From assembly GCF_018449775.1 (NCBI RefSeq), contig NZ_JAAVVB010000003.1, positions 372,001-436,000 on the forward strand: a stretch of DNA of 64,000 nt. The letters are read 5' to 3'. Positions 3,409 to 5,571 of the stretch are shown here, in pieces (positions within the stretch are counted from its first letter, which is position 1; each line of letters begins with the position of its first letter). Under the pieces are notes generated by a model that saw only the letters and a program-made list of their open reading frames with translations, ran no database searches and was not told the origin of the DNA. The DNA comes from Mucilaginibacter sp. dw_454. GTDB taxonomy: Bacteria; Bacteroidota; Bacteroidia; Sphingobacteriales; Sphingobacteriaceae. Position numbers and translations under genes: made by a program.

Positions 3409-3885
3409 TTACTCCAAAGTAATTTGTCTTTTAATGCTTTCCTCTAATGATATAAATGTTTCTGTACGTTGTATGCCTTTTACGCCCTGGATCTGCTCAT
3501 TCAACACCTCACGCAGGTGCGCGGTATCATGGCAAATAATCTTAGCGAATATACTATAACTTCCTGTAGTATAGTGTAGTTCTACAATTTCTTTTACAGC
3601 TTTTAGTTGCTTAACAGCGTCGTTATACTGCGAGCCTTTCTCCAAAAATATCCCCAAAAATGCGGTAATATCATAGCCTAGTTTTTGCGGATCTACCTCT
3701 AAACTGGCACCTTTAATTACCCCCATTTCTTCCAACTTTTTCATCCGCACATGGATAGTTCCGCCCGAAACAATCAACTCTTTAGCAATTTCTGTGTAAG
3801 GTGTAGTGGCATTTTTCATCAGTATTGATAAAATCTGAATATCAAGATTATCAATTTCTAAATTTTGAGCTTTTCTGTGGGACAT
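3409..3885 (-). CDS. Lrp/AsnC family transcriptional regulator
   Basis: A 158-residue protein with an N-terminal winged helix-turn-helix (residues ~10-60: LDIQILSILMKNATTPYTEI, then SGGTIHVRMKKLEEMGVI) and a C-terminal RAM/AsnC_trans_reg ligand-binding domain (~70-150) ending SLEESIKRQ. The family forms octamers that respond to amino acids. It is divergent from the tRNA-like RNA pair, with 164 bases between them, so the shared upstream region could be an operator. The effector is not identifiable. It ends in a good terminator, so it is monocistronic. Confidence 0.93.
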   Translation of the reverse strand: MSHRKAQNLEIDNLDIQILSILMKNATTPYTEIAKELIVSGGTIHVRMKKLEEMGVIKGASLEVDPQKLGYDITAFLGIFLEKGSQYNDAVKQLKAVKEIVELHYTTGSYSIFAKIICHDTAHLREVLNEQIQGVKGIQRTETFISLEESIKRQITLE

Positions 3886-3958: not shown

Positions 3959-3990
3959 TTTGCAAGGAATTGCTAACTCTATTATGTTTG
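3959..3990 (+). promoter_or_regulatory. Promoter (TTTG-N20-TATGTTTG) for the tRNA-like RNAs
   Basis: TTTG at 3959-3962 and TATGTTTG at 3983-3990, separated by 20 bases, match the Bacteroidota primary sigma consensus at both elements. Transcription would start near 3995-4000, about 50 bases before the first tRNA-like RNA, and point towards it. Confidence 0.55.
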
Positions 3991-4049
3991 TAACAAGCAA
4001 ACGGACCTAAAAAGCTTAAATCGTTCTTTAAAACAAATAACAATAACAA

Positions 4050-4161
4050 TGTTGGGTGGTGAAACTTTTGGCAGACACACCTCCTTGTCCCGGTGGTAGA
4101 GATCATAGGAAACCCGAAGCGGGCTAACTACTCTGTGGAGGTTCGAATCCTTCCCCAACAG
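4050..4161 (+). tRNA. tRNA-like RNA, class II, apparent GUC anticodon, copy 1
   Basis: The cloverleaf can be drawn in full: acceptor TGTTGGG (4050-4056) with CCCAACA (4154-4160), 7 bp; T8/G9; D stem GTG (4059-4061)/CAC (4076-4078) with GG in the loop; anticodon stem CCTCC (4080-4084)/GGTGG (4092-4096) with a central U-U mismatch; loop TTGTCCC (4085-4091), which puts GTC at 34-36; a 40-nt variable arm (4097-4136); T arm GGAGG-TTCGAAT-CCTTC (4137-4153); discriminator G at 4161. CCA is not encoded. The long arm places it with Leu/Ser/Tyr types, whereas ordinary tRNA-Asp (GUC) has a short variable loop. C at position 37 is also odd. A degenerate tRNA is possible, but compensated differences with copy 2 argue for selection. 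Its charging state is unknown. Confidence 0.65.
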
Positions 4162-4163
4162 CT

Positions 4164-4194
4164 ATTAAGTTTAAACTGAGAAGCTAAACTTAAT
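4164..4194 (+). other. Perfect 10-bp hairpin between the two tRNA-like RNAs
   Basis: ATTAAGTTTA (4164-4173) pairs with TAAACTTAAT (4185-4194) across an 11-base loop, starting three bases after copy 1. No T-tract follows, so it is more likely a processing or stability element than a terminator. Confidence 0.5.
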
Positions 4195-4208
4195 GAATAA
4201 CAAAATCC

Positions 4209-4323
4209 TGTAGGATGGTGAAATTTTGGCAGACACACCTCCTTGTCCCGGTGGCGGAGATCATGGGAAACTCTTAGCAATAAGAATAACCACTCCGTGG
4301 AGGTTCGACCCCTTCTCCTACAG
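4209..4323 (+). tRNA. tRNA-like RNA, class II, apparent GUC anticodon, copy 2
   Basis: Same fold as copy 1: acceptor TGTAGGA (4209-4215)/TCCTACA (4316-4322), 7 bp; D stem GTG (4218-4220)/CAC (4234-4236); anticodon stem and loop identical to copy 1 (4238-4254, GTC at 4245-4247); 44-nt variable arm (4255-4298); T arm GGAGG-TTCGACC-CCTTC (4299-4315); discriminator G at 4323; no CCA. Compared with copy 1, acceptor pairs 4 and 7 change from T-A to A-T and from G-C to A-T, and variable-arm pairs change together. The region from the D stem to the anticodon arm is nearly invariant. The copies lie 47 bases apart and are probably co-transcribed, ending at the terminator at 4356. Confidence 0.65.
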
Positions 4324-4355
4324 CTCTTCTCATAATTTAGGTTTATAATTGGTTA

Positions 4356-4392
4356 GTAAAGGCCCCTGCCCATCAGGGGCTTTACTTGTTTT
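4356..4392 (+). terminator. Terminator after the tRNA-like RNA pair
   Basis: GTAAAGGCCCCTG pairs with CAGGGGCTTTAC around CCCAT, followed by TTGTTTTA. It lies 33 bases beyond copy 2 and closes that transcription unit. Confidence 0.75.
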
Positions 4393-4436: not shown

Positions 4437-4496
4437 ATCATGAATGTTGAATGTCCAATTTCGAAGGGCTGTTAACTAACATTACTTCAATATTCG
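4437..4496. repeat. 60-base direct repeat, copy 1
   Basis: It shares ATGAATGTTGAATGTCCAA and most flanking bases with 4617-4676, 180 bases downstream, with only a few differences. The ATGTTGAATGTCC/TATTCGACATT composition is itself weakly palindromic. It encodes nothing recognisable. Confidence 0.7.
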
Positions 4497-4616
4497 ACAT
4501 TAAAACCCTTACCCCGCCACGTCATCGCGAGCGTAGCGTGGCGATCTCTGCGCGACAGGCGGATAATAATTCAGAGATTGTTATGCTCCAAATGCCATTC
4601 CATCCTTTAAATACCA

Positions 4617-4676
4617 AATCATGAATGTTGAATGTCCAATTTCGAAGGGCTGTAAACTAATATTACTTCATTATTC
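4617..4676. repeat. 60-base direct repeat, copy 2
   Basis: Second copy of the 4437-4496 unit. The spacer between the copies holds a CGTCATCGCGAGCGTAGCG repeat at ~4519, so a repeat-in-repeat arrangement is likely. Confidence 0.7.
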
Positions 4677-4766
4677 ATCATTCAATATTCGGTGTTTGAT
4701 ATTATTGAACTTATTATCAGCGGGCCTTTCGTTTAAAAGATTTATCTGCGATATAAATGATTTATA

Positions 4767-4862
4767 TGGGCGTTTCCCGCTGGTAGAAGCGGGCCCGCGC
4801 TATCCGCTCATACGCCTTCTGGCCTTATGCGCTGGGCCGGTATCCGCTGCTATCGCTAACGC
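4767..4862. repeat. Dispersed GC-rich repeat (GGGCGTTTCC...CGGTA type)
   Basis: Shares GGGCGTTTCC, AGAAGCGG, CTCATACGCCTTC, GGCCGGTA and CGCTAACGC-like blocks, in the same order, with 60338-60430. It is non-coding and part of the repeat cluster filling 4400-5500. Confidence 0.7.
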
Positions 4863-4878
4863 GGTAGGGGCTTCTAAA

Positions 4879-5378
4879 TTGTCATTGCGAGCGTAGCGTG
4901 GCAATCGCAAGGTTTGAACGCGTCGCTGTCCGAAGTTTGCAAATCGGACGACTATGCCAGTAGTTTGCAACTACACTATTGCCGGGCGATAGTGAACGGT
5001 TTAGTTTATCCGGCGGAGGACTCACCCGGCCGACGCTGCGCTGGGCCACCCTCTCTTCGCCGTTGGCGGAAAGAGGGTTATTGAAAATTGTCATTGCGAG
5101 CGTAGCGTGGCAATCGCAAGGTGGAAGGTTTGAACGCGTGCGATTGCCACGTCGTTCCTCCTCGCAATGACAGAAAAAGATAAAGCTTCAAGCGAAATCA
5201 GGTAAAACAATGGTGGCGTATGTGCGGCTGCAGGGGCTTTATAGTTTTATTGCATCACTCATCATCCTATATTAAACTTCCCGCTACGTCATCGCGAGCG
5301 TAGCGTGGCGATCTCCGGCTGGCTGTTTTAATCGCTCGTTCAGAGATAGTCACGCTCGTACCTCGCTCACTATGACGG
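4879..5378. repeat. Cluster of GTCATTGCGAG repeats and fragments of other families
   Basis: A half-unit at ~4881, a nearly palindromic pair at 5089-5172, and a pair at ~5285-5378 belong to the GTCATTGCGAG family. In between, 5008-5085 carries a GACTCACCCGG...CCACCCTCTC block that recurs at 60172-60240, and ~5190-5235 carries AAAACAATGGTGGC and GTGCGGCTGCAGGG, a fragment of the long element at 2664 and 43780. The 1.2 kb between the terminator at 4392 and the peptidase gene therefore holds only repeats; no gene was seen. Confidence 0.75.
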
Positions 5379-5571
5379 GAGGGGAGGTACTAAGAAAATA
5401 GAGTTAATTTTATAATGTCAAATGAAACAAAAAAATACTTAAAAGTCATTTTTCTTGTTTCATTCTGTTTTACTAAAAATTCACAAAAATCTAAAATTCA
5501 ATTAGTTAAGTGAATGAACTGTTTCACTTGTTTCATCTGTTGCACACACACGTGAAACAAAACAGCATAAC

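Follow-up and report, generated by a model that had tools for sequence, protein, structure and literature searches.

A widespread family of class II tRNA-like RNAs in Bacteroidota, a likely carrier for tRNA-dependent asparagine synthesis

Introduction

Bacterial tRNAAsp possesses a short variable loop (class I) and a purine at position 37, and E. coli pairs asnC divergently with asnA. The aspartate identity set consists of G73, G34, U35, C36, and C38, and G1-C72 and G2-C71 are strictly conserved in bacterial tRNAAsp; U1-A72 is the amidation signal of Asp-tRNAAsn for GatCAB, and G1-C72 and U20a prevent amidation (PMC9976931). tRNA-dependent asparagine synthesis in Bdellovibrio, Deinococcus, and Thermus employs a non-discriminating AspRS together with GatCAB on tRNAAsn, and the survey that describes it places Bacteroidetes among the genera with AsnRS, GlnRS, and GatCAB and without asparagine synthetase, its excerpted text naming no RNA of the kind reported here (PMC4206432). 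The A51-U63 pair is given as a weak EF-Tu pair in PMC4052509. Here, we compare with these systems a Mucilaginibacter locus that carries two tRNA-like RNAs.

Results

Two tandem tRNA-like RNAs in the window

The window, i.e., the whole stretch of 64,000 nucleotides (nt) that was analyzed, carries the following features at this locus.

3409..3885, minus strand: gene of an AsnC-like regulator of the Lrp family, divergent from the RNAs (Pfam AsnC_trans_reg, 63.4 bits)
3960..3990, plus strand: match to TTG-N20-TAnnTTTG, a Bacteroidota-type promoter pattern, 59 nt 5′ of copy A
4050..4161, plus strand: RNA copy A, 112 nt, acceptor TGTTGGG/CCCAACA (covariance model 1, 128.6 bits; model 2, 111 bits)
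4087..4089, plus strand: GUC at tRNA positions 34 to 36 of copy A, with C38 at 4091
4209..4323, plus strand: RNA copy B, 115 nt, acceptor TGTAGGA/TCCTACA (model 1, 126.4 bits; model 2, 105.8 bits)
4245..4247, plus strand: GUC at tRNA positions 34 to 36 of copy B, with C38 at 4249
4359..4383, plus strand: terminator-like hairpin 3′ of copy B (1 found versus 0.7 expected by chance)

Copies A and B lie in tandem, and each contains a 7-bp acceptor, a D arm, a TTCGA T-loop, G73, a GUC-like anticodon loop with C37, and a U-U mismatch in the anticodon stem. On reading the sequence, we confirmed that, as an earlier note on this DNA had proposed, a class II tRNA-like RNA of 112 nt is followed by one of 115 nt, with acceptors, arms, C37, and mismatch as described there. 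The Mucilaginibacter genome also has its own ordinary tRNAAsp, with G1:C72, and its own tRNAAsn, with U1:A72. ARAGORN reported no tRNA gene in the window or in 30 distinct further loci with RNA copies, and Rfam gave no match to the RNAs at the gathering threshold; on the stretch of the window that holds them, it gave none at E ≤ 10 either (no tRNA hit). A hit to an ordinary tRNA or a known Rfam family, which the earlier note had named as speaking against its reading, was therefore absent from both scans. When the sequences were folded singly, the z score was +0.86 for copy A and −0.44 for copy B (folded as 4210-4324), and the minimum-energy fold was a cloverleaf in neither case; since single-sequence folds give no support, the case for the cloverleaf rests on comparison. 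Further downstream, dispersed short repeats, e.g., ATTGCGAGCGTAGCGTGGCAATCGC and TCATGAATGTTGAATGTCCAATTTCGAAGGGCTG, each with at least 2 occurrences, are found at 4440-5380 of the window.

Covariation and distribution of the RNA family

In an alignment of 37 close relatives, 95.3% of the cells were paired, with 10 doubly changed pairs. A second alignment of 99 distinct sequences from many families, which was fitted to the model's own structure and hence favours the pairing score, showed 96.6% paired cells, double changes in 21 of the 31 pairs, and 349 doubly changed cells; this level was matched by 0 of 500 shuffles, and slid versions paired at 49 to 59%. The 7-bp acceptor and the 5-bp T stem were paired in 99.9% and 100% of the cells, respectively, with acceptor pairs 3 to 7 changing with compensation and pairs 1:72 and 2:71 invariant (98/98). 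The stem drift that would have weighed against the earlier note is thus not what relatives and covariance models revealed. Other families pair the corresponding position of the anticodon stem (CCCTC/GGGGG, CCACC/GGTGG, CCAGC/GCTGG, and CCCGC/GCGGG), and this stem shows covariation from one family to another. The U-U mismatch, present in both window copies as first noted, thus represents a local state. The long variable arm holds a conserved internal loop, GAnAAA/CUAA.

To follow the family across genomes, sequence cores and profiles were searched. A 25-base core taken from the window occurred in 109 stretches of the species-genome collection, and the labels among the 80 matches listed were Mucilaginibacter, Bacteroidetes bacterium, Sphingobacteriaceae bacterium, and Pararcticibacter. 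nhmmer over 139 gathered loci, which include some genomes present twice from two collections, gave 252 matches, 245 of them full-length and 150 distinct with 3′ flank; types A and B are usually in tandem among relatives. Covariance model searches extended the RNA to further genera of the window's family and many other families of the class, its total length ranging from 107 to 175 nt through growth of the long variable arm. RNA places of >105 nt were found in 20 families (f1, f2, f3, f14, f15, f16, f24, f25, f36, f42, f44, f46, f47, f49, f50, f63, f64, f66, f68, and f108). With model 2 at E ≤ 1e-12, the RNA was present in 42 of the 392 genomes sampled from the phylum, 3 of the 42 lying outside the class. 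Model 1 matches of 80 to 90 nt were rejected as family members, since at 13 of the 14 loci checked, with matches of this size or doubtful ones, the match proved to be an ordinary tRNA (12 Leu and 1 Ser) and the remaining one (L176) a damaged 109-nt family member; the model 1 tallies of 284/301 and 153/295 take in ordinary tRNAs and are not prevalence figures.

Several side observations were made on individual copies. GGGTTGACCAC or a near copy sits inside the extended variable arm in several families (L237, L242, L245, L254, L256, and others), and one locus (L273:6484-8101, genome G146) contains five RNA copies in 1.6 kb. The family also decays, as seen in damaged copies with the loop deleted (L265), the loop altered (L266), or a 3′ part unlike the family (L176). 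A phage origin was considered and dropped, as viral_contigs yielded 0 exact matches to a 24-base core of the window type, the one type searched. A search of open-licence PMC papers found no description of this RNA. We are nearly certain that the family is real, widespread, and unlisted.

Constant positions combine aspartate identity with an amidation signal

Identity positions were counted in 96 distinct copies, with three truncated or degenerate ones and identical rows left out. U1, G2, C71, A72, G73, U35, and C36 are present in 96/96 copies, and G34 and C38 in 95/96 each, with single departures in L252 and L260; U1:A72 holds in 98/98 aligned sequences. Seven copies from three genomes outside the class, located with model 2 and part of neither model's alignment, have the same constant positions, including U1:A72 (7/7), together with A33 and a pyrimidine at 37. 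Within the 96, positions 32, 33, and 37 vary: 82 copies have U33, and 83 have a pyrimidine at 37. G18 and G19 are constant in the window's RNA family, and the D loop after GG reads CAG in 88/96, so that an A, in place of the antideterminant U20a, would follow C20 by our count, the loop numbering being uncertain. The T-stem pair 51-63 is A-U in 94/96 copies, versus G-C in the own tRNAAsp.

Compared with bacterial tRNAAsp, the RNA has the identity set G34, U35, C36, C38, and G73 (95 to 96 of 96 per position) and lacks G1:C72, the short variable loop, and, in 83 of 96 copies, the purine at 37. It also lacks the 8/4 or 9/3 acceptor domain by which allo-tRNAs are defined, having a 7-bp acceptor and a 5-bp T stem. 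With a nearly constant identity set accompanied by U1:A72, the RNA thus carries the signals by which tRNAAsp is charged together with the one by which tRNAAsn is amidated. The earlier note was right in surmising a specialised, probably non-decoding tRNA-like RNA, and this RNA is kept by selection. A mimic of the anti-Shine-Dalgarno sequence was also considered, based on CACCUCC in the anticodon arm, which equals the 16S rRNA tail; it was rejected since the stem at this place differs in most copies from other families.

An AsnC-like regulator is the only widely shared neighbour

The best solved relative of the window's regulator is E. coli AsnC (2cg4; E 5.8e-38, with the next at 7.5e-21). Its score against the NCBIfam AsnC model NF008384, 179.7 bits, is far above that of every other family and under the cut-off of 227, and we therefore named it AsnC-like. 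NF008384 was matched by all 29 of the regulators of RNA loci that were scanned. In a survey of 60 loci (the window plus 59 wide loci picked from the high-scoring matches), a divergent Lrp/AsnC-family gene lies upstream of the RNA in 40, at a distance of 92 to 441 nt, and no other neighbour is widely shared; neither a transferase nor a deacylase neighbour is common to these loci. Among the 20 loci without the gene are some that hold a second RNA copy of their genome, e.g., in G046 and G529. Eleven further RNA loci were inspected, and 8 of them, including all three outside the class, have an AsnC-like gene within the stretch.

The earlier note had argued for expression from the pairing of the RNAs, a promoter, and a terminator. 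A sigma-70 scan found no noteworthy promoter for the RNA copies, but a Bacteroidota-type match lies at 3960-3990; the one hairpin, at 4359-4383, compares with 0.7 expected by chance. The Bacteroidota-type promoter pattern TTG-N17-23-TAnnTTTG occurs in 26 of the 40 AsnC-RNA intergenic stretches; in mononucleotide shuffles, the count averages 0.49 and never exceeds 3. Between the promoter match and the RNA, at about 4023-4029 of the window, we observed GTTCTT(T), which recurs in other AsnC-RNA intergenic stretches and which resembles boxA of stable-RNA leaders.

Co-occurrence of the RNA with GatB and asparagine synthetases

From the identity signals and the AsnC neighbour, we drew a prediction that was fixed before testing: RNA-positive genomes should have GatCAB and AsnRS without asnA or asnB, and RNA-negative genomes should show the reverse or lack AsnRS. 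The sample comprised 80 genomes, 45 RNA positive and 35 RNA negative, a genome being scored as negative when the filters used yielded no family member; a strict filter applied to searches over more than 40 genomes, which makes absences provisional. GatB, by which GatCAB was judged, is present in 45/45 RNA-positive versus 10/35 RNA-negative genomes (raw counts over related genomes). GlnRS over the cut-off is missing from 14 RNA-positive and 9 RNA-negative genomes. Among the genomes with GlnRS, a stratum set after the GatB result was seen, GatB is found in 31/31 RNA-positive versus 1/26 RNA-negative genomes, and 9 of the 10 RNA-negative genomes with GatB are devoid of GlnRS. AsnRS over the cut-off occurs in 79/80 genomes, and the guess that RNA-negative genomes might lack it was wrong. 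AsnA is present in 2/45 RNA-positive and 5/35 RNA-negative genomes.

The sole RNA-negative genome with both GlnRS and GatB, G071, has GatB fused to a bacterial-type AspRS beside GatA.

L354:4804-8124: GatB-AspRS fusion of G071, 1106 aa
L354:3407-4804: adjacent GatA

The fusion, a natural transamidosome-like protein, contains GatB_N, GatB_Yqey, an OB-fold, and a class II core with a GAD domain, and we read it as another way to couple aspartate charging to amidation.

Matches to the AsnB-family model TIGR01536 are found in 73/80 genomes and exceed the cut-off in 70 (38/45 RNA positive and 32/35 RNA negative). The prediction that RNA-positive genomes lack asnB, taken literally, therefore failed, because 38/45 have a longer AsnB-family protein. 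After the hits had been seen, they were split into two kinds by the end of the profile match. AsnB proper, whose match ends at 377 to 387 of 517, is present in 0/45 RNA-positive versus 20/35 RNA-negative genomes (raw counts over related genomes); its ORFs are mostly 547 to 578 aa, with one of 438 aa (G068) and one with an internal stop (G459). The longer kind matches to about 515, is mostly 580 to 670 aa, and occurs in both groups (571 aa in the RNA-positive G421). With the AsnB equivalog model NF006949 (cut-off, 499), 4/4 AsnB-proper sequences tested pass at 907 to 958 bits, versus 0/5 of the longer kind (273 to 312 bits), all five of which pass TIGR01536. The longer protein of the 38 RNA-positive genomes might nevertheless make asparagine. 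The predicted absence from RNA-positive genomes thus held for AsnB proper alone and, apart from 2 genomes, for AsnA.

Seven RNA-positive genomes have no AsnB-family match over the cut-off, and AsnA is also absent from all seven: G103, G124, G733, and G061 have no AsnB-family match, and G843, G563, and G609 have one below the cut-off. Shorter partial TIGR01536 matches under the cut-off were seen in two RNA-positive genomes, G384 and G119. Within Sphingobacteriaceae, all 12 RNA-positive genomes have GatB and lack AsnB proper, and all 11 RNA-negative genomes show the reverse; both states are held by genus g60 (G140 versus G120 and G173). AsnA and AsnB proper are both absent from 13 of the 35 RNA-negative genomes, which fall outside the present explanation. 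The idea that AsnC travels with asnA or asnB was rejected: none of the 20 asnA or AsnB-proper loci inspected (18 from RNA-negative and 2 from RNA-positive genomes) has an AsnC gene beside it.

Discussion

A conserved RNA family with constant identity positions emerged from the computation, linked to an AsnC-like gene, tied to GatB, and anti-correlated with AsnB proper. We consider it likely that the RNA does not decode but serves as a dedicated carrier on which asparagine is made by the tRNA-dependent route: AspRS would charge it, GatCAB would amidate it, and AsnC would control it. For charging, amidation, exclusion from the ribosome, asparagine release, and AsnC control, we infer the following course. 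AspRS would load the RNA with aspartate via G34, U35, C36, C38, G73, and G2:C71, for which an ordinary discriminating AspRS would suffice because the carrier bears the aspartate anticodon. GatCAB, reading U1:A72, would then convert Asp-RNA to Asn-RNA. The pyrimidine at 37, the partial loss of U33, the oversized variable arm, and A51-U63 would bar Asn-RNA from EF-Tu and the ribosome, and its ester would be hydrolysed to provide free asparagine to AsnRS. Release is suggested because translation of an Asn-RNA with a GUC loop would place asparagine at aspartate codons. The divergent AsnC-like regulator would set transcription of the RNA.

Somewhat less firmly, we lean to the view that in many Bacteroidota a non-decoding RNA acts as the cofactor on which free asparagine is made, replaces asparagine synthetase, and has an AsnC-like regulator as its partner. 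If true, this would explain why GatCAB is retained beside both AsnRS and GlnRS in these bacteria, close a gap in the asparagine metabolism of RNA-positive bacteria, and show clearly that a tRNA has departed from translation and taken on the role of a carrier in biosynthesis. Annotation of many genomes would need correction, since ARAGORN and Rfam miss the RNA gene.

The RNA could instead be a regulator, charged with aspartate or asparagine, that senses or titrates AspRS, GatCAB, or asparagine status together with AsnC without bulk asparagine supply. Such a role would agree with the linked regulator gene, with the internal loop of the variable arm, which could be a binding site, and with the coexistence of AsnB-family proteins in many genomes; however, the RNA occurs in several copies per genome in a tRNA-like rather than mRNA-like context, and GatB follows it among genomes with GlnRS (31/31 versus 1/26), suggesting that the enzyme is kept for this substrate. 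We regard this role as unlikely. It seems to us quite improbable that Asn-RNA or Asp-RNA serves a non-ribosomal transferase as donor of the amino acid for a peptide, a lipid, or a wall precursor. The non-decoding features and the weak EF-Tu pair A51-U63 (94/96) would suit a donor of this sort, but the loci share no transferase gene, their only widely shared neighbour being the AsnC-like one, and such a role would not account for the anti-correlation with AsnB proper.

That the RNA decodes as a long-armed tRNAAsp isoacceptor under special conditions is very improbable: the GUC anticodon, C38, G73, and U33 (82/96) are what such a tRNA would have, yet position 37 is a pyrimidine in 83/96, position 33 is G, C, or A elsewhere, U1:A72 replaces G1:C72, and the genome already has an ordinary tRNAAsp. 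Charging by SerRS, which the earlier note had put forward, would draw on the long arm and G73, both SerRS features in PMC7609411. It would leave unexplained why GUC, C38, and U1:A72 are constant, why the neighbour is AsnC-like, and why the RNA is tied to GatB, and the signals point to aspartate identity with GatCAB as the genomic partner; we can hardly credit it. The carrier for asparagine synthesis remains our preferred reading.

The proposed carrier resembles several described systems in part. Like E. coli asnC-asnA, the locus has an AsnC-type regulator divergent from an asparagine-supply gene, although here that gene would specify an RNA, and no asnA is found at the locus. Allo-tRNAs (PMC7609411) are likewise class II-like and have unexpected anticodons including GUC; they have 8/4 or 9/3 domains and were judged serine (or alanine) acceptors, whereas the RNA here is 7/5, has aspartate identity, and belongs to Bacteroidota. 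With the non-proteinogenic tRNAGly of S. aureus (PMC4052509), it would share a place outside translation, as well as the weak EF-Tu pair A51-U63, but that tRNA gives glycine to peptidoglycan, has a class I body, and undergoes no amidation, and the window RNA keeps G18G19. The closest parallel is the tRNAAsn route (PMC4206432), in which AspRS charging is followed by GatCAB amidation of a U1:A72 RNA, as would be the case here, with AsnRS also present; in contrast to that route, the RNA of Bacteroidota is a separate, apparently non-decoding class II molecule accompanied by an AsnC-like regulator.
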